A stretch of 64,000 nucleotides of DNA from Eunapius fragilis (Eukaryota > Porifera > Demospongiae > Spongillida > Spongillidae): positions 10,264,559 to 10,328,558 of the forward strand of contig OY811973.1 in assembly GCA_963681505.1 (NCBI GenBank), read 5' to 3'. Numbering within the stretch: the stretch's first letter is position 1; each line of letters starts with the position of its first letter. Below the pieces are notes generated by a model, which was not told the DNA's origin, ran no database searches, and saw only the letters and a program-made list of their open reading frames with translations. The translations under genes were made by a program, and so were the position numbers. This document shows positions 1,601 to 37,100 of the stretch, piece after piece.

Positions 1601-1609
1601 GATAATTCA

Positions 1610-2130
1610 GTATATTAGAACTTTGCTCATGCACAGAAATGACATCATTAAGTCTGGCATCGATCTTTAGCTGCAAACTTCCTTATATGGTGAGTAGGCA
1701 CAATTATCGCTGGATGTTCGAGACAATTGGCAGCGTTGCTACAGAGCCCTTGCAAAACTGCACCGAAAGAAGAAATTAGCGATGAAGATGACAGCTACGG
1801 GCGAATGAACTGTGGACCGGGCGCTTACAAGGCCGTGCAGAAAGGAGAAAACAATTAGCAAACTTATACCAACGCAATTTAGGATTATATATGTAATACC
1901 CTTGTCTCTAAAGTTCAACTCGAACTTGATGGCTTAACTCAGTCAAGAATATACCCACACAGTACATGCATCGATACACACAATCACTGTTTAAATAGTC
2001 TTTAGAAGTTGTGTTCTGGATGGATCCGTCCAATAGTTTTGTTTTGCTATTATTACGAAGGGGTCCGGAACACGGATCAGTCTTTCAAACCGGCTGTGCA
2101 GCTGTAGTTGTCCCGCCAAGCACATATTTA
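1610..2130. other. Intergenic, nothing recognised
   Basis: No long open frame, recognisable domain or inverted repeat was seen between the sacsin-like remnant and the nested transposon region that follows. Confidence 0.4.
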
Positions 2131-2152
2131 CAAGATATAAAAATTTAATTAA

Positions 2153-2409
2153 AATAAAATTGATGATGTAGGATTTGTAGACAGCAATTGAGTAAAAAGT
2201 AAGGAAACAAGGAATTAAGGATATTAGGCATTCATTTAATTATAAATATTACAGACCTACATTTAGCACAGAATTTCAAGGAGGTAGATTTGCTAAATAA
2301 TGTAGGTCTGTAATATTTATAATTAAATGAATGCCTAATATCCGTAATTCCTTGTTTCCTTACTTTTTACTCAATTGCTGTCTACAAATCCTACATCACC
2401 AATTTTATT
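2153..2409. mobile_element. Palindromic MITE with TTAA target duplication
   Basis: Two arms of about 115 bases (2153-2269 and about 2291-2409) are near-perfect inverted copies around a short loop. The ends read AATAAAATTG and CAATTTTATT. TTAA flanks both sides (2149-2152, 2410-2413). The inverted copy of the host sequence at 5553-5612 carries a single TTAA at the same point and no insert, so it acts as the empty site. TTAA duplication is typical of piggyBac-like and some Kolobok-type transposases. The element is non-autonomous. Confidence 0.85.
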
Positions 2410-3123
2410 TTAACACCGGGATTACGTAAGACGCGGGGAAATCTTGATTATTTTGGGGATATTCAAAAACTGAAAAATTCCCTCTGAATGGAGTTGTTGC
2501 TTCATAATGCAGCATCTGCTATCATAAGCATTTTGATAGTCAATGCGTATTTACGACAGCCTTGGGGACAATTGCCTTGGTCAAAAAAGGCCCGCAATGT
2601 CGGACAACCTAGCTAACGGGGGCCGCGGCAGGTGCACTTTTTTTCTAAGCAATCCCAGATCAGTCTTACAAGTTCATGATATACTATTGGTGGTATTTGT
2701 AAAGAAAATGCATTTGAAACTGTTTCTGTACCTCTGCCTTTTCGTTTGGCTGATTTTGTAAAGAATCGATATATGTTAAACTGCTAATTAGGCTACGCCC
2801 ACACGCGGATGTACTTCATATTGCATGCTGTTTGATGTACATGTACAGAAAATAAGCTCCTACATGTATATCAGAGTGTTTAGAGCCAATGGTTTGATAA
2901 TGTGTTGGCAGGAGTGAGAGTTCTGCAAAAATTGATAGGGCATGGGGGATGCATATGCATGTAATAGCAATGGTTGTTAGAAATGTAGGCCCACCCCCCG
3001 CCCAACTTTCATATCAAGCTGTAGCATTCCAATGAAGAGGAGGCAAGGGGTTGTTGTTTCTCTTCCCTGTCCCCCATCCCCCCCCTCCCCACTTTTCCCT
3101 GTGGACTTTTATTTCAATTGCCC

Positions 3124-7749: not shown

Positions 7750-9064
7750 TTATACATTCAATGCGTCAAGTGATGAAAGGTCTGGAGTCCTTTTCGCACT
7801 CTGCAAGGCATACCTGTAGTATGCGAGTGCAATCCGAAAATGATTTTCAGTGCATCGCTCGGCAACGCCCTCACTAACACATTCAATGGCAGCTACCACT
7901 TTGAAGTAAGCGGTAATGAAGGTGTTAACGTCGTTGATGCCAGAGGCTGTTGATACCGGGTCGTAGCGCAGCTGAATCGAACCAATGCTACACACAATCA
8001 GACCCACAGCGGTAAGCAATACCTCCTCCTTCTGAAGGAGACCTTTGCTATGGAGTTTTGAGAGTGGACCGTCTGGATGACACGTATGGTCAAGCCACTC
8101 CTCAGCCTCTTTGCTAAGGGGACTAGCCGGGTGCTCCACGTCATAATGTCTGTTGGCGTACAGGAACCGCCCTGCCGAGTCGGTTTCGTCATGGCCGAAG
8201 GCCTTCAGCTGTGGATGTATGAGCATACCGGCCAGTCCTTCCGAATCCGATGTGCATTTGACCAGTAGGGACGTCAGTGCCTTGGAACAGCAACGGCTAT
8301 CTTCGAATATTTTCTGCAAAGCGATGGAACAGGAACGAGAGCTCGAAGATGTCGGTGGGCTTTCCGAATGAATGCTATAGCATCCCGCCGCTTCGGACTT
8401 CATGGCGTATGAGAGGAAGTACACAAAAACGGAGTTGCCCAATTCGTCGATACTGTAGAGGTCTCCATTGCGGTACAGGCACACAAGACAAACGAGCTGC
8501 GATGGGTGATGTATGTGAACCCGAGCGCATCCGCTAAGCCCCCGGCGTAGCAGCAGTCCAACGTGAAGAGGACGTGTTTGGCTTTGCAGTCGGCTTCCGT
8601 CTACCAGTCGTTCAGTACCACTAGCTGTGACGTATGTGCTTTCGGTGTAGTCGAAATAATCCGAAGGTGCCAGTCCCCACTGGTCGTCTCCGACCCTAAT
8701 ACCGCGTGTCCAGAGAAGTGGAAGACGAAGAGACCATCCTCTCCAACTGACTTTACCGCCTTAACAAATGATGCCTTCATTCCTTTGAAGGTACAGTTTT
8801 CGCTGGTTTCGTCACAGTGCAGTACGGCGGCGTTGCACATTGGAATGGCACCTATATTTGTACGAAGGTCTCTGAGATGAGTTTGGCATCGTCTACGACA
8901 GTCTGGCCCAGACTCTTTGCTTTGAAACTCTCGTGGCTCTGATAGTTGATAGCGAACCCAATAAGATGACTTTGCGTCGGATCAAATTCCACCTTCGCCA
9001 CACCGATGGGCTTACCACTAATTATGTAGTGCCCTTTTCCCTCAACTCGGTAACGCTTTAGCAT
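7750..9064 (-). pseudogene. Caspase-like (peptidase C14) pseudogene
   Basis: This is a broken paralogue of the intact caspase-like gene at 23.4-24.9 kb, colinear over almost its full length. Three segments are in different frames. The N-terminal part holds FAINYQSHE and ends at a stop after ETFVQI. The middle part carries the His motif HFSGHA, slips frame so that GDDQWGLAPSD is only visible in another frame, then returns. LNDWL has become LNDW-stop (TTG to TAG) at about 8603. The Cys motif LDCCYAGG follows in frame after that stop, before another shift. The C-terminal helical region (AEEWL...IGSIQLRYDP...NTFITAY) is open to a stop after DALNV. At least two frameshifts and one nonsense codon mean no full protease can be made. 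Confidence 0.88.
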
Positions 9065-11417
9065 CGATTGTAAATGTTTGAGTAGTTGTACTTTATGGAG
9101 ACAGTTTGAACAATGCGATAATATTTATACATTGGCGGGGGCCGGGCCGGGGGGAATCCTAGGATCCCAGGTGAGCCGATATCGAGGTGAATTTATTACA
9201 TTACTAAGAACCGAAAACTGAAAACGTCGCACCTTTACCATAGCATTCGGTTCGATTTGGGAATAGGAGGCTCATAGCACGCGCAAACAATGGACATCAT
9301 GCATGTTAATACATATCCTCTTCAGAATGTTGCATCAAAACTGTTATCCATATAGATAGGGAGGTGATGAAAACTGCAGCCACACGTTTACAGAATACAA
9401 CTAGGCTGAAAATATTTCAACCGCTTGTCACGGACCTAGATCTTCTCTGACGAGCTTCGCAAGGCTTGCGCACCAACGATAGCCAAAGTTATATAGCCAA
9501 TACCTTAATACATAACAACAACAGACCATCTGGCATAGCATAGCAATAGCCTTTAAACACTATTACAAACATGACATCAGTAACACGAGGTCTAACCAGA
9601 ATTCAATTACGGACAATACTTCTTATTAGTCTTATCTCACGGATGCAGTATCTACGTCCGATATCCCGAACTTTTTTGCTGAGTTCACGATTCTTCTCAC
9701 TCTGTAGCCCACGTCCTTGCTAGATATTCACTAGACATCGCTAGGATCACTAGGTTAAGCCAAGAGCAAGCAATACGAAGAAAATATGTAAGCTGCTGTA
9801 CGCAAAATAGCTGTTAATAGTGCGCTGATGGAAAAACACAACGAGTTTCAAAATTAAAGCGGCTACGGTTATCATCGACTTAATCCAACTACACTTAATA
9901 TTCATGCAGGGAGAAACATTTCAACGTTAACATGAAACAAACGGTGTTCCATCTGTTCGTACTAAATATAATGATAGGTTGTTCATTTTCATGATAACAA
10001 CGTGCCCGACTACCGATGCGGAATTTGGTTTGACCACGCCCAAAACAAGACCCGATCCGATTAGACCAAGCTAAACTAAAGCATCTTAACAAAATCCATG
10101 TACTTATGTCCTCCCTATCATTCTGAAAGATTATTTTATTCCGCCTACTTTTATACAGCTTGTCTGAATTTGGTTTGTCTTTTCAATATGCAATTAATTA
10201 ACAGGTAGCACCTCAAATTGTGCTTGTAGTTGTGAATAAGAAGAAATCCAGCATATCATCTTGCAGCCAGTTTTTCTCGAGTATTATTAAGCTCTCCATT
10301 TTATACAGGGTGTTTGCGCGAAAGAATGCAACGCTTTAAAATCCATAAAACTCAGGATTGAAATTAATTAACTGCTTGATTTCTTTAACATGCGTTTCAG
10401 TAGTTATGCAAATACAAATAATCCAATTATTATAAACGATTAAGTAACCGTATCAAATACCTCATAAATCAAAATATTCAAAGCCCTCTATTAACAAATT
10501 TATTCAAGATTGCGGTTTAAGATAATTGATTTTAATAACTAATAATAAGTAACACGATCTGGCTATGTGGCGGAACAGTACTGATTTCAAGTTCCTAGGT
10601 TCAATAGTGAGTTATTAACATTTATGACCATCATTTGCTTTAAAGTTATTAAGGTTGAAGCTGTTATGTGGTAAATAATTTTAATAACCATCATAAATTA
10701 TTCTAGCATAAAATGAATTACAAGACACTATTTGATTTGGTAATAGATTATTTAATGGTGCATTATTAAAACTGAAGTTAAGAGAAACGTAGTGATCATA
10801 AGGCTTTTTCAAGTTTGATTAGTTGTTTTGAATATTAACGCCAATCAAATTTAAATTCAAAGTCTCATCAACTCAGTTTATAAATCACGTTATTAATTAA
10901 AATTTGTCGTACATTGTTTTATCAGTTTGGTTAATTGAAAGCTATTTGATTTTATCTTTTGAACGGCTATAAAGATAAACGAATTGTAAAATTTGACTAA
11001 ACATGGTTATTGTACGTTCATAAATTCATTTAGATTGACAATCCTATTAATGAATTATATTCATTTAAAAGCGTTGCGCTCTTTTGCAAAGACCCTGTTA
11101 AACATGTGTGTACAACGTACGCTTATATTTCTAAATGAGAGCACACTGTTATCAAATCTGACATGTAAGCTATATTTAGCCATCTGCAATTTTTAGCTCC
11201 TTCCACTTACTGACACCAATCTCTATTAGAATATTTGTTCGAGAGCTCGATTCATGAAATCGAACAGGTGCATTAATAGTAAGAAATAATGTTCATTTCT
11301 AGTTGGAATTCATACAAAAGACTGCTATTTCAAAACAATACTAAAACTTGCAGATACTTCTCTACTACATGCATAAGTAAAATGTCCTATAAATTATTAA
11401 ACTGAATAGTTCTTCAT
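9065..11417. other. AT-rich intergenic stretch
   Basis: About 2.3 kb between the caspase-like pseudogene and the 3' end of the sacsin-like gene. Short open frames at 9.9-10.1 and 11.0-11.2 kb show no recognisable motif. Any 3' untranslated region of the sacsin-like gene would lie at the right edge. Confidence 0.4.
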
Positions 11418-11840
11418 TCATACCCGCAGCACTAATTGTTTGATGATTTTCAAAATTCTTTCTGCTATCTCATATGCCTTAGAAGAATCACTTCTCCTGT
11501 ATACATTCTTTGGAACTTTAGGATATGTGTGTCTGTTTGGATATCGAGTGTTTAAGTAGTATTGCTCCAATGAATCTGATAATTGTGTCAAGTCACTGCA
11601 AATCTCTGGTCGCACATTCTGGATGGCAAGTGCATGTGAAGATAGTTTATGAGTCATCATTTGGTCATTGCTCATCCCACATAATGCATATCGACCACCT
11701 TTTAAAGCTTTCTCAGCAACTTGCTGTGCCAAAAAGCAGACATGACAGCATATATCCTCATAATTAATGCTGCAATGATTAAGCAGTTGAAGAGCTTTAA
11801 GATCACTCTCTGCCTGTTCCAGCCAACGCATACCTTCTTT
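11418..11840 (-). other. HEPN domain of the sacsin-like protein
   Basis: The C-terminal ~140 residues begin near [14 protein letters not shown] and continue through [23 protein letters not shown] and [13 protein letters not shown]. This is the usual helical layout of sacsin-type HEPN domains (WLEQAE...A...AQQAAEKALKA...H.L..L...YI.TRYP). HEPN domains bind nucleotides in sacsin. RNase-type HEPNs carry an R-x4-6-H motif, which I do not see clearly in the R-Y-P-N-R-H-T-Y segment; RYPNRH formally fits R-x4-H, which is worth testing. Confidence 0.85.
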
Positions 11841-14800
11841 ATAATTAGGAAAAGAGGAAATGTCTGGTAACACACAACAATTATTCCAGCCTACTGCCGA
11901 CTGAACAGTTACGTCCCATCTGTCTAAGAGTTCTTTACCAGTAACATCGCAATGATCTCCTATTACATTCCATCTGCCTAAAGGTTCCTTACTAGTACTT
12001 GGACTAGTACTTGGACTAGTACTAGGAATAATGTTTGGAGCCAAGACAGGTTTATTTACAGATTTGTTCCTTTGAATAGCTCTAGGACATTGGACATTGC
12101 AAGAGTAAGATGGTGCACTTGGAGCAAGAGACGAAGTATTCCTAGCTACGAGACATGAAAGGTCATCCATTTCATTAATGACTTCAGTTTCTGGTAGTAA
12201 TATGACAATTTGTTGTCTTAGAAACTCCACTATGCTTTGATTTTGATGTAGCCATGTAAAGTATAATCGTTTAAGCAATGTTTCTCTATCATCTTTTCCC
12301 AGAGACCAGAAGCATTTGAGTAAATTACTTATACTTTCTTTAATTTCTTCTGTGTTACGCTCATCGTGAGGTGCTACTTGTTGAATGTTGTATAAATGCA
12401 GCCTATTGACAATTTTCTCAGTTTCATTCAATAGAATTCTGTACTTTGCAGTGCCAATATTACAACTTGCCGTATCTGGCATTTCACCAACTAACTGAAC
12501 AAAGACCATGCTTCCATCTTCTCTATTGTAGGCCACCCACTCATTTAGTGCACTGCTAATATCAAAATCAATGGAAGACTCTGGCACATTTGCTCCTGGT
12601 GTGATAAACTGTGTTTCAATGCTCCTAATTCCGAGAAAATTCAAACATTTTTCCATTTCCTTCCAATTGTTGCACTTGAGTAGGACTGGAATGGCACTAG
12701 TGAGTCCCTCAAAGTTCAATGATGTGGCTGATATATTCTTTAACAGAAATGCCATTAGCTGGTCTGCAAAAGTGCTGTATGCCATGTCAAGAAGTGGAGG
12801 ACTAACGTCACTTTCAATGTACACATTGTAGGACATATTGTCCATGTGTAGCAGAGATGACACAGAAGCAACCATCTCGTTGTTATAAGAAAATTCTACT
12901 GATAGTTTACAAACCCCAACAATTTTGACAGTATTTTGAAACCTCTTCAATGAGTCATGTATTTCTTTGCATATTTCATCATAATCTGATATTTTTTTCA
13001 CAATTAGGCACAGAGCTGTTCGCAAGTTTGAACTGCACAAGGATGCTCGAAATTCCTTTGCTACTACTGAGAATTGATCTATACCTTCAGGAAGTGGTTT
13101 CTGTTTGCAATACACTGACATCGGCTTTGGTGCTAAATGTGCAGGAAGAAGCTTGCAAAGGTCTGTCTCAGTCAAACCACAGTTTGAAGGTAACTTAAAC
13201 AATAAAGTTTTACCATAAGAACTGAACTCTAAACTTTGGAGTGGTATGTCTGACAACATAAGTTTGGTTGAATCTACTAGTAATCCTTCTGCATTTGGTA
13301 AATATAATTCACATAGGGATTGTAACTTTATCTCACCTTCATTTGTGCAGAGAAACCTATGGAGATGTTTAATTGCATTAGTAATGATTGTCTCCACATC
13401 TGAGTTATGTACTTGTGTTTCTTTTATGTTTTGAAGGATATGACTTATATGACAGAGCTCAATTTGGTTTCTTACACCAGTCACTTGAAGAACAGAAAAT
13501 ACATCTGAAAATTCTTCTGGAAGAATATGCAGATAAGGGTAAAAACTGAATTCACAGCTGGATGCATGTATTACTTGGGATGGCTTCACCAGCACTATCC
13601 TTTCTTTTTCTTTATGCATAGGATTGGCATAGACTGGAATGCATGGTATATCTGCCAACAATTGCAACTGGCATGAACTAGTGACTTCCATATTCTGCTT
13701 TAGATACTTGAAGTTTTCGAACATCACATCAATTAGTGTTGAGCATTGAGGAGGTGTAATTAGCTCATCTGGGAAATTCAGAAAAAGGTTTTGATCCGAG
13801 AATACACTGTTTGAAATATTCTTGATGTTGTTTATCACATCCATAACTGACGGTATTACAGTCATTTGTAGTGATGAACACAGCTGACAAAGCAGTTCAG
13901 GCAATTTTACGATTGGTCGTAATGTCCAAAGCAGTGGAGTGTGCTCCTCTACAGCAGCTCCACACAATGTTGTCATTGATCCAGTGGGTGGAGTTGAGTA
14001 GGGTTCTGAAATCCAAATAACTGCATCTAAAGAGCAAATACACACAAAAGGAATTCTACCAATCATTAAAATGAATTCTGCATCATCATGCCAAATAACA
14101 TTTGAAGAAAGATGTTCTAGGAGAATGTTACTTGCTTTAGTGTCTACCACACCTGCTGCAATACATGTACAGAAATCAATAAATGTTTCTTTAGAAATTG
14201 ATGACCTTAAATCGAAATACCTAAAGAACTCTAGCCATTTTAATTCTTCAACATCATGATAACATTCAGGAAGGAAATCGAAACGTTCAGGAAATAATGT
14301 AAATATAGGATTTTTGTGATCACAGAAGTCAGAAATAGGTCTGCAATTAGGACCAATGCAATATGCTTTTGATAAGGCCACTTTCAGTTGTACATACTCA
14401 GGTCTTTCCGTATGTGCAACATTGAAACAATATTTCGAATATATATTATCACGAATGTATCGCAAAATTTCCTGCCTTTCTGCTTCAGAGAATGTTTTAA
14501 GGCTTGGGATCACAAACACTGCACAAGCCTCTTCCGGTGAAAGCCTTGATGTATGAGGATGTATTCGTTGAAAAAAATCTGCCCACTTCCAATCATCACA
14601 CACAACAACATAGTCTTCTGTCAGGTTCAAGCAATCTATAATTTTTGGAATTGAAGATACATCACTGTTACATAAATATAATCTCTTTCCCATCAATACT
14701 GTATAGTTTCCAGTAATGTCCTTGAAGAGAGGAAGTTCTGCCAGTTTTACCATGTGCTGCACAAATGCTCTATGCATGCTGTACATACTGAAATACTCCA

Positions 14801-17800
14801 TTATAGTGTTTACACACTCTTCAGTCAATTTTAATGAAATATCATGTGTCATGTGAAGGTAAATCATATTCTGAAGAATCATATTGTATTCTGACATGTG
14901 CGGACACCTAGAATTTGCTGCATCTACAATTTCATCATTAAGAAAAGGCATTCCAAGTTCCAGCAATTCCAAAGCCATATTCCTATGCAACAGAGCACAT
15001 CTTTCAATTATGATTTCACATGGATTTTTTATTATTTCATAATCAAGTATTATTGGCAAGAGGCCATCATTGAAATAAAGGTATAATTTATCATTAGTTG
15101 TCAGAAGAAGTGCCCATTTTCCAATGATAATGCTAATATGATTTCTAAAATATGGATCTGAACTTAAGCATGTCCATAGTTCGCGCAGAGCCAAATAGTT
15201 GAAATATTTGCTTGCATGGTCTACATGTTGAACCTCTTTAATTTCAGGTGGTAAATTTTTATGCAATATCTCTATCACATGTAAAATACAACTCGCTCCA
15301 TTAGGTGAGAGATAATAGTCAGTGGAATACTCAGTATTTACCAACATAGGATGCATAAAGTACTGTTTACTTTTTGGAAACAACGAGGAACTTTTTGACT
15401 TAAGTACCTTGCAGGACTTGGTCAAAACATTTAAACAGTTGTCAGCAGTTAGAATAAGTGGCAAGTTGAAAGGACATATTGGAAATTCAAAATATTCAAC
15501 GCCATACCGTTGTACACTTTGCAGTACCCATTTTGTGAAAAGTGCAAACACACGACTTGACTGAAATATTGTATTTTTAATATGGCATGGATATGCAACT
15601 TTCCCAAATTTATTCTTGGACTTGCATAAAAGAATGAAACAATTAAATACAACTTTGGCATTGATGGTAGGTATTTCTAATCCCACATCGAAGAACAATT
15701 GTAGCAAAGAAATTGGAGTGCATGTAATGTTCATGCCCATCCTTTCAAACAGTTTTAAAAGATCCTCATTGCCACAAGGAATGTATATTTGACTCATTTC
15801 ATCACTTCCTTTTATTGGATGCCATTTTACTTCTATTCCTGAATCCGTTGTAACTTTTTGACATAAAATGCATGCATTTTGCATGGAAAAACTTTTATAA
15901 ACATCCATAGCTACCTGGAGCCACAATCCTTTCAAATGTGTTGAGAGTTTCCAATTTGGGAAAAGGCTATAAAACATTTGCAATTTATGCTTGAGTTCTT
16001 TCTCATCGGAATTCCATTTACTGACATATATTGAAGCCATACTGGACAATAGAGCTGAGTATGAAGATGAGATTGCCTTTCCAAGGTTCTCATTCCATTC
16101 CTGCTTTTCATCACATTTGCCTGGTACAGAAGCTGTCCAGAGTGCTCGCCTTGAAGAGTCCAGACAAAATTTTCCATTAATGTGCACTGGTAAGTTTGAT
16201 TTGACAGGAAGAGGAAGGAAGCAGAAAACCTGTCCAGATGTTGACGGAGAAGTAATTAATGGATTGAGGGGTACAGCAATGCCATGCTGCGGTTTGATTT
16301 TTTGTATTAATTGCCACAATTTAACATTTCCATCTTTGTCTCCCACCCCTCGTTGAACTAACCATGGATCCGATGATATGACAGCCTTAGTATTGCAATC
16401 GGTTTCCAACAGATTCACCTGATACTGCACTTGGAATGGATTGTCCTGCATAGTAAAGTTTTTAACTTTTAAATGCAGTTGTGAAAATTTCTCTTCAATT
16501 GATTCCATAAATTCGCACTCACAGTGATAAAACACATGGAATAAATTTGCATCATTAATTAAGCACAGCTTTAACTCTCTCACATGATTAAGAAATAACA
16601 ATGTTAGTTTTAGGTCTTGCTTAATCCAATCCTGAAGCATAGAATATACTAAATCAGTTTTGGAAACTTTAAAAACGTTATTTGAATCAGTTTGTATTTG
16701 TTTCTTAAGTGGAAAGCGAAATAACGTTCCTGAATGTATATCGTCCTGTAAATCTAATACATCAGAATATAAATATGCACTTCTCAAAGTATAATGATGG
16801 TTAAAGAACTTTTCCGTGACTTTGTAGCTGCACCCAGGTTTTTTTGTATCCTTTGATTTTACATATCTACAGTACGGGTCTAGTATGTATAAACGATCCC
16901 TTGTGATGAAGCTTGGGCAATCAGTGAGATGGTAAACTACATTAAAGCCTATGCCATACTGCCCAATAGATTCCACACTGCTGTCTTTACTACCAAGGCC
17001 AATATCCTGAATACCTTTCAAATCTTGATCTGAAAATTCTCTGTCATTCCAAACAAGTAGGGCTGGACCTTGCAAATCTTCCCACTCAGGAAACAGTAGA
17101 TTTGTATTGCCATGAGTCCGCATGTCCAAAATAAAGTAGACCTTACTTGCCTTAGCATCATCGGCATTCTGTATCAGCTCTTTCATGACCGTGATGTCAA
17201 AAGGATAGTCACGTAGGATTGTTTTGATTCTGTTTGTGATATTTTCACTCTGACCAAATGGTTCTGCCCCAAATGGTGAGTGGCATTTCAATGATTGGAC
17301 ATTTAAACATGCTGCTAATTTGGGATTCACATCATGGTGCAGCAACAAGCAAGGTTCTGAGGCATCCAATGTGCCTTCAGATTCATCAATGTTATCCTCC
17401 AAGCCAATTTCATAATACATCAAGTCATCATTTTCGACATATACAACCTTTGTGGCATCTTCCAGCTCAAAATGATAACATTTAGACTTAACTGGAACAT
17501 ATAAAATAGAACCATGTAAATTAACCTTTCTGGTACCATGATCAGTGAGAGAGTTCAAAATAAAGGCAACAATATTCATAGTTTGGGGAGTATAATCACC
17601 TTTCATTTTCATCGTGTGCAATACCATAAGGAGCTGTTTATCAGTAGTCTCCATCTCAACCCCGCATTTTTTAAAAAGATCGCTGAACCTATGTAATTTA
17701 ATAGGAACACAGTAATGATTGTACGGTGCAAGGTCAATCAGCAAACAATCCTTCCTTCTTTCCATTGCAACCATATCACGATATGCAAAGTGACCTCCCT

Positions 17801-20800
17801 GTACCATTATCCAAGGACACTGGTATGCTTTAATTTGAGCAATAGCTAATTGTGTTGTCGAAAGGAATTCATAAATCTGACAAACAATTCCATATAGCAC
17901 TTCCATGGAAAAGTTGGTCTTCTGATCACGTACATGTGTAAAATGATTAAGAACATCTGTAACAGTGGGTGAAAATGAGAATCCAAGTTCAGACAATCGT
18001 TTAGGTGCTACAATGCATGAACTAGTATCCACTATTAGTACTTCAGATCCAGCAATGTTAGGTACATTGGGAGTGTGTGTGTTCACTAAACATACTCCAG
18101 TTGATGTAAAATGGGATGGATAAGCACTTCCTTTCCAAGGTAATCCCTTTGGATAATCACTTGGTGGGATAGACTGAATTGGAAGCCAGCAATATGAGCA
18201 AAATGACTGTTTAACAGCACATTTTAGCTTCATATGTTTCTGTTGAAATGATACCATGGTTTCTATCAATTTATCATCACAAGAAAAAAGGTACTTCAGC
18301 ACAGCTCATGCTCTGACCAACTGAGTGGTATCTACTTCAGAAAAATGGTTGCTATAAAATGGTTTGGTCCCAATTTCAATGATGACATTAATAATCATTT
18401 GAGGAGTGATGCATGCAGTGAGACCACAGTGTTTTAAATACTTTAGACATGTGGAAGTATCAAAGGGAGGCAATGGAAAAACAGATTTGCCATAAAACAG
18501 TTCCCATAATTCAGGTACATCTGGACTACACAATTCATTGGGGCATTTTCTATCCAGATAGTTGTCAGCAACTTTTATAAATGGTAGAGTAGATATCTCG
18601 TACATTATCACTCGTTTGATGGTCAAAAATTTTAAAATGTATTGCATCATCACGTCAATTTGATCAGCTGATTTAATTGCACCTTCATTAATCATAGGGA
18701 ATAGCACGCTTTTTATCATGTCATTAATATCTGGGAAATGAATATAGTCTTTTGCAAACTTTTCTAATAGGGACCTGCTATTCTTGCTCTTGAGCACAAC
18801 CAAATTTGATGGCAAGCACGAGATATCAAATTCGTCTGATGTCATCATCACAACCTTTCTTTTCCATGAAGATAACTGAGCAAATTCAACAGACATTACT
18901 TTATTCGATGTTGTAAAAAAGATTGGAAGGGATAAAAGCACTTTAATTTGACCTGAAGTTGGAGAAATGATGCTGGTCAGAAATTGTTGAAATATGTATG
19001 CCTTATTTAAATCCATAGTTTTAGGATAAAGTGAAACATTTTGTAGTGCATTGAGTATTCCATTAGGGGAGAATTTATGAATGTAATTAGCAAGTTCAGA
19101 ATGCTTGAGGTATGGATAATCACAGCATTTTACATATGAAATAGAAAAATGCTGAAGGCTCATCAAAAGATCTTCATCACAATCATCTTCAAGATAAATT
19201 GTTTTTGAATCCTTGCTACTTGATAACTTATCCACACAGTTTGGTGGATATGATAGAGGAATCAGTTGCTGACCAAGAAAATAATTCAAATCATGTGTTT
19301 GCGACCATGCCCAAAACAATGGTAGCCACTGAGAAACTGATGAGGTATCATTAACTGAAATATATTTAGACAAGAGCACACTGGTTATTTTATCATCCAA
19401 TAAGTATAGGTTTGTTATCCCAGACTTAGCCAATTCCTGAAACACTATGTGCCTATCAGCCTCTGTTATATTTACTAACTGGTGTTGGCACTTTTCAGGG
19501 AAAAGTTCTAGTGGGTACCTATCTGTACACAGGAACTTTTGTTCTTCACGCTCTTGTGCTGCATGGAACTTAGCATATTTCCCATTGGCCAATGGAAGCA
19601 GCATAAGTCCTACTACATTAATGAAGGATCGACTGTTTGAAAGACAATACATCAAAAGTGCAAGCTTTTCATCATGTGAACGTTGTATGTAGGTTAATGG
19701 GTACTGCTTAAGCAATTTTGTTATAAGAGATGGTGTCAACTGACTCATTTGCACATGAGTTTTAAATTTCAAGCAATATCCCAAAACATTTTGTGGAACT
19801 TCAACCAGCATTTCATTAGACTTTGCAATGACATCACATACTATTTCCCAGCCAGGAGGACTTGAATCCACCTTAGGAGTAAGTATCGCATTCATCAGGC
19901 TAATCCACTTACCTGACTTAGCAGTCCAGAATATGCTCTGGGTACAAAGTATTTTAAACAAAGGTTCCAGAACTGGTTTCCAATGTTCGCTGTTAAGCAC
20001 TTCAGTAACATTAGGCCACATTCTATAAACCAGATCACTATGTATCAAGCGTTGACATGCCCCCTTAATGAGTAATGCATAGCAATGTGGAAGCAGTCTG
20101 CTCACAATGATCTCATTCCAACGTGCCTCATCCTCCTCACTTGGGTTCTGAGCACTCCTCCACTTCAATGATCTGCGATCATCACTGGTTGCGAATGTGC
20201 CATTTATGTGAACAGGAAGAGGGCAAGTGAGCTCCACTGGCATTGGTAGAAAACAAAATATTCTGCTATTTCTAGCCGTCATAGTACCATCTAAGTGTAT
20301 TTCCATTGCATTATCTTCAGGTACTTCCATTTCAACAGCATCATTTACAGGTACTTCCATTGCAGCACCAACATAAGGAATAACATTAAGCTTCTTTGCC
20401 CTACGAAGATCATCATCATCTAAACATCCTAAATAATAGGAAATTAGCCAGCTATGTTTGGATTGTAAATGTTTGTTCAGTAAAATTGTGATATTTAACA
20501 TCATCACTAGTGACACTGGTGCATTTAGTTTCCAGTGTGTGTGGACATCTTGTATAAAGGCATCTTTATCATGAATTTGTTTCTCTTCTGTTATCATAAT
20601 GCTAACACAAGTAGTTTTATCAAAAATAATTTCAATTGTATTGACTGACTGTAAAAAAAGTAGTAAAAGTTTAGCTTCCTCTTTAAATTTGATCAACAGG
20701 TCACATAAGTTTATAACATTGTAAACATTTGCGGAAATATTAGAAACTTCATTTCTAAGTGGAAATCGAAACAAAGTACCAGGATACATTGTCATATTTC

Positions 20801-21292
20801 TAGAGAATCCTTGCTTATTAATAAATGGAACCATTGTGTCCCAATAATCTTTTTCCCTTTTCCATATATCACTAAGCTCGTATGACCAACCTCCATCACG
20901 CCACACCTTCTCTTGAGGATCAAGAAAACCAATGGTATCACCACTGATTATAATAGGAAGATCTGTGTGGACAGTTGTTATGCAGTAGTCTAGTATTACC
21001 AATGGTACAGCAGCATACATAACATGCACTTACCTGTAATATGATAGACTGCATTGAAACCGATTCCAAACTTTCCTACTTTCACTGGATTCTGCGCTTT
21101 TTTGCTGCTTTGCAGGAGCTGAATACCCTCCCAGTCTTCTGGCTTGAACTTAGCATCATTATATGACAATAATGCTGGGCCTTGGTATTGAGCCATTGCT
21201 GGGTTCACCAAATTGGTTGTTTCATATTGACAATCGTCAATTATAAATTTGACTACTTTAGCACCTGCATCATCTGCATTTTGGATTAGTTC
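11418..21292 (-). CDS. Sacsin-like protein: two HSP90-type ATPase/sacsin repeats plus HEPN; one in-frame TGA
   Basis: Exon 21292-21034 starts at the Bergerat motif [10 protein letters not shown] and includes [16 protein letters not shown]. Its donor (ACAG/GTAAGT) joins, phase 1, to an acceptor at 20962, giving [13 protein letters not shown]. From there one exon runs about 9.5 kb to the stop. The first repeat has GTLFRFPLR and PVHINGTF. The second has [10 protein letters not shown] (near 17160), [25 protein letters not shown] and VHINGKF. A Pro/Ser/Thr linker ([11 protein letters not shown]) precedes a C-terminal HEPN domain (below about 11840). Sacsins are large chaperone-like proteins; vertebrate sacsin also has a giant exon, three repeats, DnaJ and HEPN. 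No DnaJ or ubiquitin-like domain is seen here. A single TGA at 18306-18308 interrupts VRA*AVLKYL. The N-terminal exon before ELIQ was not found, so the model is 5' partial. It may be a recent pseudogene. Confidence 0.85.
18306..18308 (-). other. In-frame TGA inside the sacsin-like open frame
   Basis: The two long open frames (907 and 2294 codons) share one frame and are separated only by this stop: TTQLVRA, stop, AVLKYLF. Sacsin repeats typically read RAxAVLKYL here, with a basic residue. A single CGA to TGA change (a CpG transition) would explain it. No splice site removing it was obvious. Confidence 0.85.
20962..21034 (-). other. Short intron in the sacsin-like gene
   Basis: The donor GTAAGT (reverse of 21028-21033) and the acceptor ending CCACACAG (just above 20962) bound a 71-base phase-1 intron (20963-21033). 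Splicing restores the conserved Y-H-I-T-D sequence of the ATPase fold. It illustrates the short introns in this genome. Confidence 0.75.
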
Positions 21293-21474
21293 CTATTACA
21301 GAAGCATCATAAAACATTCAATGAGTAGCAAGCAAACCAGGGATACTCAATAAGCGCATACAATGCTAATTGATGTCTGAATATGTGAGCACAAAATCTA
21401 CATTACACTAAACTGTCACATCACACTGCTATAATTAAATTCAAATAGCTTCTAGAGCAGGACCATCATCAAGG

Positions 21475-21664
21475 TACAGTACCGGCTCGGTCATAGAGAA
21501 ATTTTGCAGCTTGGTCATAGAGAAAATAAAGTGTATACATTGGTACTAAGCCAATTCATAGTGATTGCTATGAACACTTATGGTTTCTTTAGTTACCAAT
21601 GTATACGCTTTATTTCAAATATGATCGAGCTGCAAATTCTCTCTATGACCAAGCCGATACTGTA
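21475..21664. mobile_element. Palindromic MITE, TA target site (mariner/Tc1-like ends)
   Basis: Arms 21475-21547 and 21593-21664 are inverted copies (TACAGTACCGGCTCGGTCAT at left, GACCAAGCCGATACTGTA at right; inner arm TATACATTGGTAC). The ends TACAGTA/ACTGTA suggest a TA target duplication. It lies upstream of the sacsin-like exon and carries no ORF. Confidence 0.75.
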
Positions 21665-22325
21665 TTAAGAGGAAGCCATACATATTTGGCATGAATTTAT
21701 AGTTACACAATAGAGAGTATCTCTGACACAGTTAAAGGACTCTAAATTGTATGGATGCATACACATGTAGATCATTTATGGAAAAATATCACAGTGATGG
21801 CACAGCCTATAAGGCAGTGATGGCACATTTCCTAACCCTCCATGGAGTTGAGTAAGCACTGATAAGCCTGCACATTGTAAAGTTCCTCATTACAGTGCCT
21901 CCTCCCCCTCCCCTCCCCCAAGTACAAGCCAACTCACTTTATTTATCCAGTGCAATCATTTATACTTGGTTAGAAGCATAACATCCCTTTACACATCAAT
22001 CAAGGTACTAGTAAGTATTCATGACATGTAGTTGCTAATGAAATAATTTGATTGGTTAGGGAATATGTTAACAGCTAAGGGCTGTTAACTTGCTAACGTG
22101 TCCATTATCAAGGATCTCTATTACATTCGGGCCTTCCTGGATTAATCTCATTGGACTAGGGCTTTTCACAATTAGTGTACCTCCAGAATGCTCTGACCCC
22201 ATAGCTAGGTACTTCGTTCGTTTCTTAATTTTTTTACTCGTTTTTCGCCACACACAAACACACATGACCTAAAATAAACATCACTGGATGATGCGTACAT
22301 GTATTGAATGGGATGTGGATGGAGC
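21665..22325. other. Region upstream of the sacsin-like gene; missing N-terminal exon not found
   Basis: A minus-strand open frame near 22068-22215 starts MGSEHSGGTLIV. It lacks the sacsin signature expected before [10 protein letters not shown], so I do not join it. No other coding signal is evident. Confidence 0.4.
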
Positions 22326-23012
22326 CAGTGGCGTAGCGAGGGGAGGACATATGTCCCCTGGCGCAAGGGTTTAGGGGATCCAAAATAGACAATTTGCACA
22401 GAGGTAATTATCGCGAACGGGCCCGCGGGCACATCTTGAGTCTTGTTAACAAACATGTGCACACGCAAACTCATTTCTAGTCACCGACATTGAAGATACG
22501 GTAACCAGTCGTCACCTCCATAATCTGTTGAATACAGTTCCAACTTCAGGGTTAATGCACAGGCTCACAATGGCAAGCGAGCAGTTAGCCATTATCGTAC
22601 AGACAGGTACACATAGCGCCAGTCATAGTGCGATGGTAGTTTTGCGGGGGCAGATACTTCCCCAAACTAAATATCCTAATGTAAACGATTGAGTGTATGT
22701 GCGAAGGCATAGGTTGCTTGCAGAAGCAAATGCAGTGTATTAAATTATTGTCTGTTACTACGAAAGTATCATGTTTTTGTGACTTAAAAAGTGCGAAAGT
22801 TGCAAAGCGGCTGGGGCGGAGCCCAGACCCCTTTGGGTGAGCTTTGCATACCCCCTTGCCGGGATGATCGAGGCCCGGCATATCCCTCTCCGCCCTTGCG
22901 GCTGCCTACCGACCCTCGCTGCAAAATCCTACATCCGTCCCTTTAATTGTAGGGGGGAGGAGCCATTATTGCATTATGTCCCCGGGCGCTCAACAACCAC
23001 ACTACGCCACTG
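22326..23012. mobile_element. Non-autonomous hAT-like element, 8-bp target duplication
   Basis: The ends are CAGTGGCGTAGC and CTACGCCACTG. An exact 8-base duplication, GATGGAGC, flanks both sides (22318-22325 and 23013-23020). An 8-bp duplication with short CAGTG-type ends is characteristic of the hAT superfamily. The 687-bp interior contains no recognised transposase. Confidence 0.88.
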
Positions 23013-23020
23013 GATGGAGC

Positions 23021-23442
23021 CATCCTCCACCCCCACCGGCAGTGATCATATGGAGCTGCGTGGTCTGAAATCAACAGCCAGACAGAACTCTATACATTGT
23101 ACATGCACCTCCCGCGTTTCAACTGAATGCATTTCATATAACCAACGCGATCTATATAGTAGTGTTCCGCAGTATAGAGCTTGCCTTAAAGATTTGACCA
23201 TCCGGATAACGACGTAGAATTCCTTTAATAGTGGCAGAGACTGTACTACGCTGTCGCAATGGTTTTCCGTTCATCTCACTAATGCCTCACAATAGAAATA
23301 TCGAACAAAGGCCGCCCGATCTGTAAATGGAACATTCAACAATGAATATCACACACTATGCTGATTGGAGGGTGGGTCGGATGCCTAAGTAGCTAGGGGT
23401 GGGCGTGGAACAACAGTGATAATCACTGCGTTGGCATAAACC
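23021..23442. promoter_or_regulatory. Upstream region of the intact caspase-like gene
   Basis: There is no gene in this ~420-base stretch. It must hold at least part of the 5' control region of the caspase-like gene, but I recognise no specific element. The start context is ACCATGG, a good Kozak match. Confidence 0.3.
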
Positions 23443-24867
23443 ATGGGACTAGGTACGTCTCGTATCCAACAACAACCCGACTATGACAGCTTCCTCATCA
23501 TCAGCAATCCGGCGGAAAAGGTAGAGTTTGACACCTCTCAATCCTTCATGGTAAGCTTTGCCATCAACTATCAGAGCCACGAGCGGTTTAGAGCCAGGAC
23601 ACTGGGTCGATCCGTCGTGAACGATGCCAAACTCGTCTCGAATACCTTCGTACAAATCGGGGTTGTGCCGCCTAACAACGCAACGGTCCACGTAGCCGCA
23701 GAGGAACCGATCGACTGCACCTTCGAAGGCATGAAGCGGCGATTTGTGGACAAGGCGAAGTCCGTAAGGGCAGAAGGCGTGTTCCTTTTTCATTTCTCCG
23801 GCCATGGAATACGAATGGGAGACGACCAGTGGGGACTGGCACCTTCGGATTTCAACTACACCGAAACAACCTACGTCACAGCTAGGGTACTGAACGACTG
23901 GTTGACGGAAGCCGACTGCAAAGCCAAACATGTCCTCTTCACGTTGGACTGCTGCTATGCCGGGGGTGTGGCCGACGCTCTAACGACCGGCATATCACAC
24001 CGGAGCCTGTTTGTCGTGAGCGCTTGTACCGCGAACGAATCGTCCTATGTCGTTGGTACACTCGGAAATTCCGTCTTCAGCTATTGCCTAGCCAAAGCAA
24101 TGAGTAAGGAACCTCGGGAACCCAGAAGTCTGCCCTTGCACAATATCCTCACCGAGTGCCGTACATGCAGCAAAGCTCTTTCGTCACTTCTGGTGAAATA
24201 CAACACACCCGGAAGCTTTTCAAGTTGCCAAATTGACCCGGAGATCGCGTTTGCCGATTGCGACGAAACGGACGGTCCCTCCGACTTCGGCCGTTGTCTC
24301 TACGTTACAAAGCATTACGATTTCGATGCTGGTGTACTTCCTTTGCACGAGGAAACCAAAAAATGGCTTAGTAGCATCATCGAATCACTTACCCTGCTTC
24401 ACGACAGGGGTCTGCTTACAGGAAAGGTACTGATCACAGCTGTATGCTCCATCATGATGAGCATTGCGTCTATTCAACTGGCCTTTCAGCCGGATACGGT
24501 ATCTCACCCTAATACCTTCATCACTGCATTTCTGAATATGGCTTCGCTATTCGACCTTCATTGCCCGGGGATAGATATTACTATCGTTCACTTCGAACTT
24601 GGATGGGGGTTTTATGACTATGTGCTGGAAAAGAACGCCATTGACCGTACGCACATAAAGGTATTGCGCAACGCAATATTGAGGGAGAACAGAATGGCGG
24701 ACGACGATGAATGCGACGGCAGTAAGGTTGGTTTGCATCAGTGGCGGTGTGGCTGGTGCATGGCAAACCCGCGTACGTTCATATACTTGTCAGTGTTCTC
24801 TAGTTTACTGATGATTATGCGGAGAACTACAGCCACACCGCCATGCACTGGTTTGCATATAACTTGA
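23443..24867 (+). CDS. Caspase-like cysteine protease (peptidase C14 fold)
   Basis: A 474-codon open frame from a Kozak-like ATG. Residues ~25-200 form a C14/caspase-like domain: HFSGHG holds the putative catalytic His (about 121), LDCCYAGG the putative nucleophile Cys (about 171), and VVSACTANE follows. The remaining ~230 residues form a conserved helical region (KKWLSSIIE...SIASIQLAFQP...NTFITAFLN) shared with the two other copies in this window; I do not recognise it as a named domain. Both dyad residues are present, so it could be active. A DCC motif resembles metacaspase/paracaspase-type C14 proteins more than the QACxG pentapeptide of classical caspases. The last 40 codons before LHIT come from an in-frame MITE. 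A donor-like GTAAGG at 24722 could instead splice before the MITE. Cellular role (cell death or immunity) is inferred from the family. Confidence 0.88.
   Translation: MGLGTSRIQQQPDYDSFLIISNPAEKVEFDTSQSFMVSFAINYQSHERFRARTLGRSVVNDAKLVSNTFVQIGVVPPNNATVHVAAEEPIDCTFEGMKRRFVDKAKSVRAEGVFLFHFSGHGIRMGDDQWGLAPSDFNYTETTYVTARVLNDWLTEADCKAKHVLFTLDCCYAGGVADALTTGISHRSLFVVSACTANESSYVVGTLGNSVFSYCLAKAMSKEPREPRSLPLHNILTECRTCSKALSSLLVKYNTPGSFSSCQIDPEIAFADCDETDGPSDFGRCLYVTKHYDFDAGVLPLHEETKKWLSSIIESLTLLHDRGLLTGKVLITAVCSIMMSIASIQLAFQPDTVSHPNTFITAFLNMASLFDLHCPGIDITIVHFELGWGFYDYVLEKNAIDRTHIKVLRNAILRENRMADDDECDGSKVGLHQWRCGWCMANPRTFIYLSVFSSLLMIMRRTTATPPCTGLHIT
24739..24850. mobile_element. 112-bp hAT-like MITE inserted in the caspase-like C-terminus
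   Basis: The ends are CAGTGGCGGTGTGGCTG and CAGCCACACCGCCATGCACTG (inverted, with a 4-base indel). The exact 8-base duplication GTTTGCAT flanks it (24731-24738, 24851-24858). Insert plus duplication is 120 bases, so it adds 40 codons without shifting frame and contains no stop. The original ending GLHIT-stop is kept. Confidence 0.88.
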
Positions 24868-31190: not shown

Positions 31191-34100
31191 CTCAACTGTC
31201 ATGACCTCATATTCATGATAATACACCAACTAACCTTTCTACCGCAACTACCGTTCTCAATACTTTAAATATTATTCATTCATTCAACGCTTCTGTCTCA
31301 AATGCATTTTATTATTTCCTTAGGTAAATCCAGTGCTTAATTTTAAGGAATGCCCTAAATTGCCAAAGGAATGCACAGGCAGGCATAATGGTGCAAGATT
31401 CAGGCAAAGCCTCCTTTGTGACAACCACAGACAAGTTGACATGTGGAGCCGAGGCATTGCAGAGATGAAGGAGGGACCAGTGTGGGCAGGGAGCGCAGGA
31501 ACATACAGGTTGGAGAAGGCCAGCTGGGTGAAGATATGTGAAGGGGTTGCATGGGGCAGCACACTTGCAGCCATGGATGGGAAAGTGATCTCCTTTGGTG
31601 GTGCACACGACCGCCAGTACAGTAACAGTGTGAAGGAGCTCGATGAGGGCAAGATGAAGTGGAGTGCCATTTCATCCATGATTGTCGCCTGCCATGACCC
31701 CTGTGTGGCAAGCATCAGTTGTGGTCAACTTGTGGTGATGGGAGGAATGGGCCTGGGAGGCATCGCATTGGATGTTGTCCAGGTGTTCAACTTTAAGGAG
31801 CGGAAATGGCAGCGTGGGCAATCGTTACCAGTTGCCTGTTGGGGAGCATCGTGTGTGGTCCATAAGGATACAGTTATTATTGCTGGAGGGACGGGAATGG
31901 CCACCTCTGTGTGGTGTGCTAAGATCATTCAACTGGTAAGTGCCCCTGAGATTGCGGAAGATTGTGTGTGTGCATGTGTGTGCATGTGTGAATCACGTTT
32001 TGTAAAAAAAAATTTTTAACCGGTAAATCATTATTATTGAAAGGATTAAATGCACATAGACTACACATAACACCACTAAACTACAGCTATAACACTAACG
32101 TTACTATCATAAGTCCTAAATAATGTCCTTAAACGCAGATGATGGCAGGTATGATCGCATCAGAATAGCTCCAGCATTGGCCCGTACCAAAATCATGCTG
32201 AGACGACCATAAAATATTAGCTATATTATGTAAATGCTCGAATATTTACGGAGAGTTGTAAACTTTAAATCTCAAACTTGGAAACTGGGTGCCTTTCCCC
32301 TGAGATTTCTGACAAAAATTCCAAACAGAACATATATAAAATTAATGTGGATATGTAACATTTGAATAAGGATAAGATGAATGCAAAGCAACTGAATCAG
32401 GGATTATTTTTTAGTTGGCCCATTCATCTAATCAATTGAGCCGTATACATATGTGAATGAATCTGTTTATTGTACTCCCATTGCCGCCAACATTCCACAT
32501 GCATACCGGGCAGCTGGAATGCTGCAATGACACAGGCAGTGCCTGTCCCTCATGGACCCAGTTGCCAGACCTTCCATATCACTATTCAACTCTCTGTGTG
32601 GTTGATGATGTCCTGGTAGCTATTGGAGGGAAGTACAGTGAAGGGTGCTCATCTATGAAGACTTCTTCACTATATGCTTTTAATGGACAACGGTGGCAGC
32701 ATGCTGGGGAAATGCGACTGAAGGCTTATTGGGTTGATGCGGTGGGTCTCTGTCATGGAGAGATGCTTGTGATTGATGGATGCACCCTTGCTGTTACAAA
32801 GTGTGAGGTGGAAGGTTAGTAAGCAGTATTAATCCCTTTGGACTGCTATTTGATGTTTTTCTACTACTGGGACAGCAATTGCCAAATTGAAGACTCAGGT
32901 GGGACATTACCTTGATTACCTATATGATTTTCTATTGTTGCACTCTTACCATAGCTAACAGCTATGGAAATCAGTATGAAAGAGAAAGATGATCAAATAG
33001 AGAAACAGCAATACATGTGAGTCAACATATAGTTACGTAGATGTGAAAGCAAAGTAGGTGGGAAGTACATGTATAACTATGTGTGTCCCATTGTCTAGTA
33101 TATCACAGAAGGACAATGAACTTATTGAAGTCAAAAAGAAATTCGAAGAACTCACCAAAGAAGTTAGTTATATTAGTTATATACTAAAGGAATAAAGAGC
33201 TGAAACTTCTACAATGCCATTTGTTTTTTTTTCTTGTAATGCACCGGTGGACGTGTTTTGAGTGCAAGCAACAAGGAGAAATACTTGTATTATGAGAAAT
33301 AGCATTTGTATGAAGGATACGACCGTAAATAGTTTCCCGTAATAACTAATAATGACTTACGCATTTTGGGCAAAGGATGAATATCCATTTTGTTGTTTAG
33401 AAGAAACAATGTGAAGCTCTGATACATAAGAAAGACAGTGAGCTAAATGAGATCAGAATGAAGAATGAAAAGCTTCAAACACAGGTTTATGGCCTCAAAA
33501 TCGCCAATAGACCTTGATTTGCTGCACTTTTTATTTTACAGGCACAGCCTAATGCACAATTATTGGACAGGTGTAAGAAGTATGAAAATGACGAAAAAGC
33601 TATCAGAGCGGAGAATCAGAAGAGGTATTTTAATACTTACTGTAGCGTATTTGCATAAAGCTTTTATTCATGTCAGAGGTGCGACATGGGTGATGATTGT
33701 CTTTATGCTGAACTCTTTTTTAATGAGAATAGAATTATTGAATCACTTATTTTAGCTGCAATTATTCACTATTACCCTCTAAAAGCCAAAGGAACATGGA
33801 TCAATACATATACTATCTTATGATTGCATAGGGAAAAAATAAAGACATTTCAATGTTGCATCAACCATTCTTCTGCGTCATTGCTACAATTAGACATACT
33901 AAGGCTTTAACAGTTATTTTATGAGTAGAGCAATGCATGTATATAAGGGAATCACGATGGTGCAAAATATCTTTGCAATTATGGGGTAGTAACCCAAGAA
34001 GAGAAAGACCATATGACCCTCTTCCCAATCATAGTGGCCTCCTTCAGCTAGCTGTTCTACTTTATCTCTTTAACTAAGACAAAAACGATGAATTATTATT

Positions 34101-37100
34101 CTGAATTTGTTTATAAATTCTTTTCTAATTAAAAGGGAAAAAATTCGCCCTCCTTTTCGTCGTGAACCTTCATACAAAAGAATAAGATCAGATTTAGTAC
34201 TTTTAAGAAGTACGAAGTTCTACATGTTTGGAGCCTGCTCTTTGGTTCATATGCATTTTTGATGTACTATTAATAATGGACGGGATTTGGAGTACTTTAA
34301 GACAGTTTTTAATCAATGTGCAAGTAGCTTATGGCCTCAGTCTAAGGCAATGCAATCAATGGTAGGTAGGCTAACAACAGTGCTTTCCCAAAGCAATATA
34401 GAATAGGCGTGCATAACAGCCATGACATATTTTGATCTGTACTCGCCATGGTCATTACTTCTTAAACATTCTTTAGAATGGAAAGTGTATCTCTGCATCT
34501 CCTGTTTTTGATTTTTTATGTAGGATCAAACAGCTTGAGTTAAAGGTAGCAGATGCAATGCAAGAAGTGGCAGACCTTATATCAGCCATGGCCAGAGACC
34601 GAGCAGTACGTAGTATAAACTTACAGATCAAGTGCATGTGGAAATTTCATACATGCCACAGTGCTCAGATCTTCTGGATAAAGAAATCAAACATATCAAG
34701 CATGAATCTACTGATTTACTGCAACATGTAAGGCTTTCAAAATTATATGATCCTCCATTCCATATATTATATTGAATGCAGGATGAAAAGTTCTGTGACA
34801 GTAACAGTAAGCCTGCCAAGTATACATGATGTTGTACCATGAACATTGAGTCATTTCAATAGTGGCTGAGAAATTAAAAAGACGTGATAACCGATTGAAG
34901 GCTCTAGAGAGTAACAAGGAGATCTTGGCCATCACGCAGGTTTGATAAGGAATATTTTAGCATTTCAATCCATATTATAGCCAGGGTGTAAGATAGTTTA
35001 GCATTGAATGAGCAGCTACCTCTGATGGATACATGCAATCGATAGAGATATGTACACATCCAGTGCATGCATTAATTTAAATGATCCCTGCTTGTGTACA
35101 ATACATCTGATTTGCTAAGGGATGTAACCTTTAAATTGGCTCTCTTCATGCAGGCATATAGGCAAAATTTACTGCATGCTCAAGTGCGTTTTTAATGACC
35201 AAATCACTTATTTGATCAATATTACTAAAATTAGGGGAAAGACTTTGGGGCCATTAATGAAACTGAAACTATGGCTATTTAAAAATGCTCATTCAAAGAA
35301 TTAAGAATGCAATATTTCCGTTCTGTTAACAAATCAATCGGTATGTGACTGTCATGATATACTACTCCTGTAAGTAATTACGTTCTCCCCTTCAGCCTGT
35401 TGATGGCACCTCACAACAAAGGCAGTCTGAGCGACATAGAGGTAATCTTATTTTTTGGTGTGACTGTAAAATATAATGAATGTGCTGCATACACATTTGC
35501 AAGCACAACCTGCAGTACCCAGATGGACACAGATGGCATTGTATACATATTCAATGCTAAACTTAATTCCTCTGCAACTTCTTTCTTACGCACTGGAAAT
35601 TGGTCTAGCTGGGTTTTGCATACTAGTCTAGATCGAGTTATAATGGGTCTAAATTGTAATGATTCGCGCTCGCATTTCAAACCTCCTCCTGCATGGGAAT
35701 TTTTAATGGTATGGCGCTTGGTCGGGTCTCATATGCATTTCGCGGCAACAATTTGAAGTTAAATGTAACCACACAAATAGTAAACACCCTGCTTCCTGCC
35801 CCCTACACCCTCCCCCCACCCCCCCACCCCCCCACCCCCCCACCCCGAAGGACAGAGAAATAAGACGAGAAAACATTGCGTATAAAAATCACACAAAAAT
35901 CAATAAATAGCTTTTCGCGTGATTTTCTGTTCAACCATACAAATCAATGATTCCATGCAATTCCCCCCCCGCCCCCCAAGTAAATCCAATTAGGAATTAC
36001 GATAGTAGTTCCTATATAGGAATTGACCGGGGTCGTGAATATCATTTTAAAAACGCGACCCGCGCATAACTCGCTCACCGAGAAACGGATAGTGTTGCTC
36101 GTTGTTGCTATCGAACCAGAAGGCAAAGACGCTCATTTAAATGTTTTATTCCAGTCTTCGAACTGTTTGCTTTAAGAGAACTAAAAAGTTCGTGTTTTAT
36201 CTCGTCCCCAGGCCAAATCTTCTCGGTCGTCAACGTCGTCGTCGTCTTCTTGGGTGAGTGTAACTCCGGATAGGAATGGTTTTAAAGAGCGCAAATTATA
36301 CCAATCGCTTTAGAATATCCTGGAAGAATATCTTCTAGTATCAGATATATGAATAAAGCTTAAAACTGACATACGTAATCATTACGTAATGCGTAGTGTA
36401 AAATAGAAGCGTTCCCATGGCGACAGCTCCGTATATTTAGAATTGTGCAAACAAAAGAGGAGAGCTTAGCAGCGAAACGACGAGTTAGAATTCTCCCGCG
36501 TTCCTTACAGTTATCCCAAACAAAAGCGGGCGTCTGCCCGTGACGGTAATTGAAGCGTGGAGGGAGGGTGGGGGGGGGGGGGGGGGGGGCACTTGCCAGT
36601 ATTAAAAATGATTATATAAGAAATAGAGGAAACAAGTAAAGAGAAACATTCTCTAACGAGAAAGTTGGTGGGATATAGGAATTGGAGGCAAAGGTGGTGT
36701 AAAAAGAAAGGGGAAAAGGTTTTTGGAAAAGAAAAATGAGACAAAAATCCTATACTTAGCACTTCTTTTGGTTGTTACATGTACATGTGCTTAATATAGG
36801 ATTTTTGTCTCATTTTTCTTTTCCAAAAACTTTGTTCCCTTCCTTTTTACACCACCTTTGCCTCCAATTCCTATATCCCACCAACTTTCTCGTTAGAGAA
36901 TGTTTTTCTTTACTTGTTATATATAAATATGGGTTCAATTTAACTTTGTGTTGTCTGTAAAAAGTAAGCTAGTGATGGAGCCTTTAGAATACCCACACAC
37001 AAGACCCAATTGATGTATGTACTTATAGTTTTGAATAGCGTAGCATCTTTGACTTATACCTCTAGCTGAACTACTTGACTACAATTTCTTAGATCTTCTG

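Follow-up and report, generated by a model that had tools for sequence, protein, structure and literature searches.

Gene structure and surroundings

The DNA analysed here, referred to as the window, is a stretch of 64,000 nucleotides from the sponge Eunapius fragilis (C3:10264559-10328558; the assembled genome comprises 219 Mb in 24 contigs). Its minus strand carries a giant gene that, judged by its domain content, is sacsin-like, with two SACS/Hsp90-like ATPase repeats followed by a C-terminal HEPN domain (Table 1). Within this gene lies a single premature in-frame TGA, which can be read directly from the sequence as the minus-strand codon at 18308-18306, preceded by GCA and followed by GCT. 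The stop is flanked by open frames of 907 and 2,294 codons that lie in one and the same frame. An initial annotation, which had described these two frames as one sacsin-like reading frame joined at the TGA, was correct on that point, with SACS sequence on both sides and HEPN at the end. The extent it gave to the gene needs adjustment, as the first 22 codons of the 907-codon frame belong to an intron, and two upstream exons had been missed. The joined model spans 3,298 codons, 3,296 of them sense, and apart from its natural terminator, codon 3298, it has a single stop at codon 1002, about one third of the way along the frame. Over its roughly 3,300 codons the frame showed no second lesion.

Table 1. 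Features of the sacsin-like gene (copy A) and of the segment it shares with copy B; positions are those of the window
Feature	Position	Strand	Remarks
Exon 1	23185..23274	-	ATG start, 30 codons, ends YPDGQIFK; exon end and GC donor same in B and C
Intron 1	between exons 1 and 2	-	GC-AG, 1,892 nt; donor AAG/GCAAGC (slash marks the exon end)
Exon 2	21034..21292	-	ATP-binding half of first SACS domain; PF25794, 4.7e-35; splice sites
Intron 2	20963..21033	-	GT-AG, 71 nt; CAG/GTAAGT ... CACACAG; position same in B and C
Exon 3	11418..20962	-	single giant exon; natural stop TGA at 11420-11418
First SACS domain, second half	20625..20966	-	PF25794, 2.2e-18; lizard sacsin 5v47, E 6.3e-18
Premature in-frame TGA	18306..18308	-	sense codon in all 9 other copies covering the site
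Second SACS domain, 3′ of TGA	16551..17246	-	PF25794, 3.1e-70; 5v47, 2.7e-31
C-terminal HEPN domain, 3′ of TGA	11436..11828	-	PF05168, 3.7e-12; RYPNRH, an R-x4-H motif
Stretch common to A and B	10598..22123	-	96% DNA identity; C3:10219000-10230482; left end is the limit of the sequence compared

The continuity of the frame across the TGA is not a chance effect, because SACS sequence is found on both sides, HEPN lies at the far end and copy C, open over 3,287 codons, aligns across the site. The initial annotation had instead based continuity on the internal sacsin repeat pattern, an argument that does not hold since 121 of 300 shuffled sequences score as well; comparison with paralogues was used in its place. 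Relatives of solved structure are sacsin structures; those of the HEPN end are two small proteins, 127 and 122 residues long. At E values up to 0.1, Pfam matches in exon 2 and the two exon-3 frames are confined to SACS, HEPN and one sub-threshold HATPase, with no match to DnaJ, ubiquitin-like or Death domains in these parts of the gene.

PMC3710099 describes the Rx4-6H motif of HEPN domains as an RNase motif and reports that another sponge, Amphimedon queenslandica, has multiple sacsin-like genes in which SACS/Hsp90-like repeats are combined with a C-terminal HEPN domain. Vertebrate-type sacsin is there characterized by a ubiquitin-like start, three repeats and a DnaJ domain. Compared with the sacsin-like HEPN proteins described there, those of Amphimedon included, the gene is alike in its SACS repeats followed by HEPN with Rx4-6H and in the presence of several copies per genome; it differs in having two repeats rather than three and in its premature TGA, and DnaJ, ubiquitin-like and Death domains are unmatched outside the 30 codons of exon 1. 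On the same description it does not have the make-up of a vertebrate-type sacsin, as two repeats were found and exon 2 and the exon-3 frames match SACS and HEPN only. No relatives were found among viral contigs and prokaryote genomes.

Several other features are encountered in the window. Two open single-exon caspase-like frames that are 40% identical to each other are located on the plus strand at 23443-24867 and 39891-41285, the former head-to-head with the sacsin gene with about 170 bp between the starts. A caspase-like pseudogene with frameshifts and a stop (7801-9028, minus strand) matches the Peptidase_C14 frame at 23443 in two pieces with 54-59% identity. Other plus-strand frames close to the caspase-like and sacsin-HEPN genes are a Kelch-repeat frame at 31324-32819 (4.1e-13, then a weaker one below the cut-off) and a Death-domain-like frame at 37053-37559 that narrowly misses the Pfam cut-off. 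An interspersed repeat of about 800 bp (10302-11099) is located in the flank 3′ of the sacsin gene; dozens of copies of it with 81-87% identity occur on many contigs, and the matching flank of copy B also spans this repeat.

The giant copies and the nearest relatives

The genome holds at least 12 giant sacsin-like copies, as counted from a protein search in which 21 of 55 candidates were scored and from a search for SACS domains (44 of 44 scored). Three are on C3, namely the window gene (copy A) and the copies termed B and C; C8 and C15 have one each, and C10 has seven, named by their positions in Mb (2.41, 2.45, 2.52, 6.12, 6.16, 6.19 and 6.88). A small C18 fragment stands outside this count, as does a degenerate tail from a further sacsin-HEPN copy on the minus strand (window 702-1529), which has several in-frame stops and is about 80% identical in DNA sequence to C at its 3′ end.

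Half of the 12 (A, B, C8, 6.88, 2.41 and 2.52) are disrupted by nonsense, frameshift or retroelement insertion. Copy B carries four lesions, of which two are in-frame stops and two are deletions of a single base, and 2.41 and 6.88 each have one frameshift caused by a one-base deletion. The last 200 residues of the nearest relatives of 6.88, which form the HEPN end, have no match in that copy, so it has either decayed by more than one step or has a different end. In C8 an in-frame TAG lies between frames of 2,060 and 1,461 codons, with a separate 733-codon frame further 5′, and additional lesions may be present. In 2.52 a retroelement with reverse transcriptase, RNase H and integrase domains (2-3010 of the stretch examined) breaks the frame, and downstream of this element the sequence is 99.3% identical to the unbroken copy 2.45. 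The other six copies are unbroken: C over its whole coding sequence, and 2.45, C15, 6.12, 6.16 and 6.19 over 3,701 to 3,947 codons, which run from the boundary of the examined sequence up to the terminal stop. No disruption common to two broken copies was seen (A, B and C8 were compared at the site).

Copies B and C are the closest relatives of A. A genome search with the kilobase around the TGA returned DNA matches solely in A, B and C, and a tree of 1,787 columns, built from the region beyond the codon in A, B and C and from the longest open stretch of each other copy, joins A with B and then C with full support. Over exon 3, B is 97.4% identical to A (9,281 of 9,531 sites); it shares A's strand and lies about 56 kb to the left of it. 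Copy C, on the opposite strand about 100 kb away, is intact, with 3,287 codons and no internal stop, and shares 64% amino-acid identity with A (2,055 of 3,226). Along the coding sequence, A and C diverge by 7.5% at the 5′ end and by as much as 36-39% in the direction of the 3′ end. The rise is interrupted by a dip at codons 1201-1400, and this gradient suggests gene conversion at the 5′ end.

The A/B pair could be viewed as an uncollapsed haplotype, which is unlikely. The two copies lie on the same contig, and their identity drops abruptly from 96% to 85-89% in intron 1, with the shared stretch stopping near window 23390 (in a comparison with 19.8 kb around B), apart from three short matches elsewhere in the window. 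The neighbouring caspase-like frame at 23443-24867 has its own 97% copy, inverted, at C3:10256825-10258216. Towards the left the likeness extends further in pieces: the 3′ flank is common at 87%, and the caspase-like pseudogene is shared with the segment beside B at 92-98%, in pieces that lie about 5.5 kb apart in B.

Origin and age of the stop

The site of the TGA could be compared in nine of the eleven other giant copies (all but 2.52 and C8), and none of them has a stop there. The residue is Arg in B, His in C and Lys (four copies) or Cys (three) in seven more distant copies. The initial annotation had stated, from the internal repeats, that a basic residue is usual at this position; the internal repeats alone do not bear this out, and among the paralogues it applies to six of nine. 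Its proposal of a CpG transition agrees with the comparison, in that the first base of the codon is T in A and C in both B and C, and is followed by G in A and B. Polarisation with C thus places a C-to-T transition within CpG on A's own branch. The third base differs among the three copies, which leaves more than one candidate for the ancestral sense codon; it was probably one for Arg.

The ratio of observed to expected CpG is 0.31 in the coding sequence versus 0.68 in the window. There are two polarised CpG transitions on A's branch, the TGA among them, and seven on B's, which corresponds to rates per base of 0.9% and 3.4% versus about 0.6% for other transitions. These few events amount to a modest indication of CpG hypermutability within the sacsin-like gene, and methylation may have driven the C-to-T change.

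Since the split of A and B the gene has evolved under purifying selection that is visible on both sides of the TGA. The dN/dS ratio between A and B is 0.36 overall, 0.27 before the TGA and 0.42 after it. With 57 A-B changes of ambiguous polarity set aside, along with gapped or stop-containing codons, polarised changes number 37 synonymous and 37 nonsynonymous on A's branch and 48 and 69, respectively, on B's. The part of A's branch after the TGA has 22 synonymous and 27 nonsynonymous changes, and neutrality is rejected there with P values from 0.0003 (equal rates) to 0.008 (transition- and CpG-weighted); for B after the same codon the values range from 0.003 to 0.065.

The purifying selection before and after the TGA and the lack of a second lesion argue that the stop is young. 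Neutral evolution over the full length of A's branch would be expected to leave 5.8 to 9.2 nonsense changes, against one observed (P 0.001-0.02). The lack of a further stop limits the neutral period to at most about 0.6-0.8% divergence (95%). Measured against the 5.8-9.2 nonsense changes expected for the full branch, this period would cover no more than roughly the final third to half of the time since A became separate. The dating could be blurred by gene conversion with B, in view of the abrupt fall in identity within intron 1 and the rising distance between A and C. Among the copies that cover the site, the disabling lesion is present in A only; it is absent from C, which is presumably functional. 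Relaxed constraint and further lesions, additional marks of a pseudogene, were not found in A, where omega on the branch is below 1 and no other lesion occurs; this is as expected if the pseudogene is very young.

Interpretation of the TGA

The preferred explanation, to which we assign a probability of about 0.8, is a recent nonsense mutation in a redundant sacsin-like duplicate, either fixed or polymorphic, that arose by C-to-T change at a CpG. A sense codon, probably for Arg, would have been converted to TGA in copy A only, and the nonsense allele would be too recent for further decay or would still be segregating. Recent loss or a polymorphic allele had been among the options of the initial annotation, and these are the ones favoured by relatives in the same genome. 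The TGA at codon 1002 would stop translation, and the A allele is likely to be null. Loss of A would be buffered, because A forms a tandem pair with B and the intact relative C is located about 100 kb away. Since the premature stop falls in the final coding exon, decay of the junction-dependent type would not be expected, barring an intron in the 3′ UTR, and the signal for such surveillance is probably absent. If transcribed, the gene would then yield a product of 1,001 residues that includes most of repeat 1 but neither repeat 2 nor HEPN. Tandemly duplicated families are known to contain young nonsense alleles and polymorphic pseudogenes. Copy A resembles them in its one private lesion, its intact relative on the same contig and its otherwise preserved frame, and differs from them in gene size only; polymorphism is here a candidate state.

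An error in the base call, or a mis-called heterozygous site in an intact gene, is improbable. The outcome does hang on one base, and the assembly contains at least one join (200 N at 54217-54416). However, the direction and context of the change match a natural CpG transition, an error would seldom produce a stop (about 4-5% of random substitutions in the coding sequence do so), and copy B with its four private lesions demonstrates that decay does occur here. The base call at the TGA is likely to be right.

It is more doubtful that the stop is functional, giving a 1,001-residue protein without HEPN, or two proteins by fission, with a possible role as decoy or regulator. The position of the TGA in the last exon fits such a product, as does the stronger constraint on A's branch before the TGA (omega 0.19-0.25) than after it (0.35-0.47). 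However, B has the same gradient without this stop (0.29-0.39 before the codon, 0.49-0.67 after), so that the gradient is uninformative on the TGA. Furthermore, the TGA lies inside the tail of repeat 1, about 350 codons ahead of the second SACS domain, and none of the nine covering copies has a stop at the site. The specific version in which a selected truncation would free the N-terminal sacsin ATPase repeat from the HEPN RNase to act as decoy or regulator, in a fast-turnover and possibly immune family, is very doubtful.

Programmed readthrough or recoding by a near-cognate tRNA, selenocysteine insertion or UGA editing would restore the full-length protein, and is likewise improbable. In readthrough genes and selenoproteins the open frame goes on past the stop, and in A the frame 3′ of the TGA is likewise intact and was formerly constrained; past purifying selection in this part would be expected under readthrough as well. 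Cys is found at the site in three distant copies, as at selenocysteine sites. Against this, the stop is not conserved among paralogues in the same genome, as it is in readthrough genes: the TGA is private to A, all nine covering copies have a sense codon, which gives conserved readthrough no support, and the nearest copies have Arg and His. Selenocysteine was rejected on those residues and on the lack of a SECIS element among six Rfam matches (E up to 5, 9000-24000). The sequence CTAG after a stop is a leaky readthrough context; here the stop is followed by GCT. A structural readthrough signal was rejected as well, the local RNA fold being unremarkable (z -1.73, with 10 of 200 shuffles folding as stably), and a changed genetic code is contradicted by the TGA that terminates A, B and the C15, 6.12, 6.16 and 6.19 copies. 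A literature search combining sacsin, stop codon and readthrough found no paper in the collection searched.

Removal of the TGA within an unrecognised intron is the least credible reading: of the 85 GT..AG pairs that keep the frame within roughly 300 nt of the codon, 79 would take it out and leave an open frame, as expected anywhere, but the best donor fits 6 of 9 consensus positions versus 9 of 9 for intron 2, and the residues around the codon, which would be lost with the intron, can be aligned in nine copies.

Taken alone, the TGA is an ordinary young nonsense mutation. Its context is of some value, with 12 giant copies of which six are disrupted, in some cases through a single visible lesion among thousands of codons. 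Gene predictors may divide such genes into two models. The turnover of the family, which fits ongoing birth-and-death, is of more interest than the single TGA, and the sacsin-like family is a candidate for null-allele polymorphism in a wild animal.
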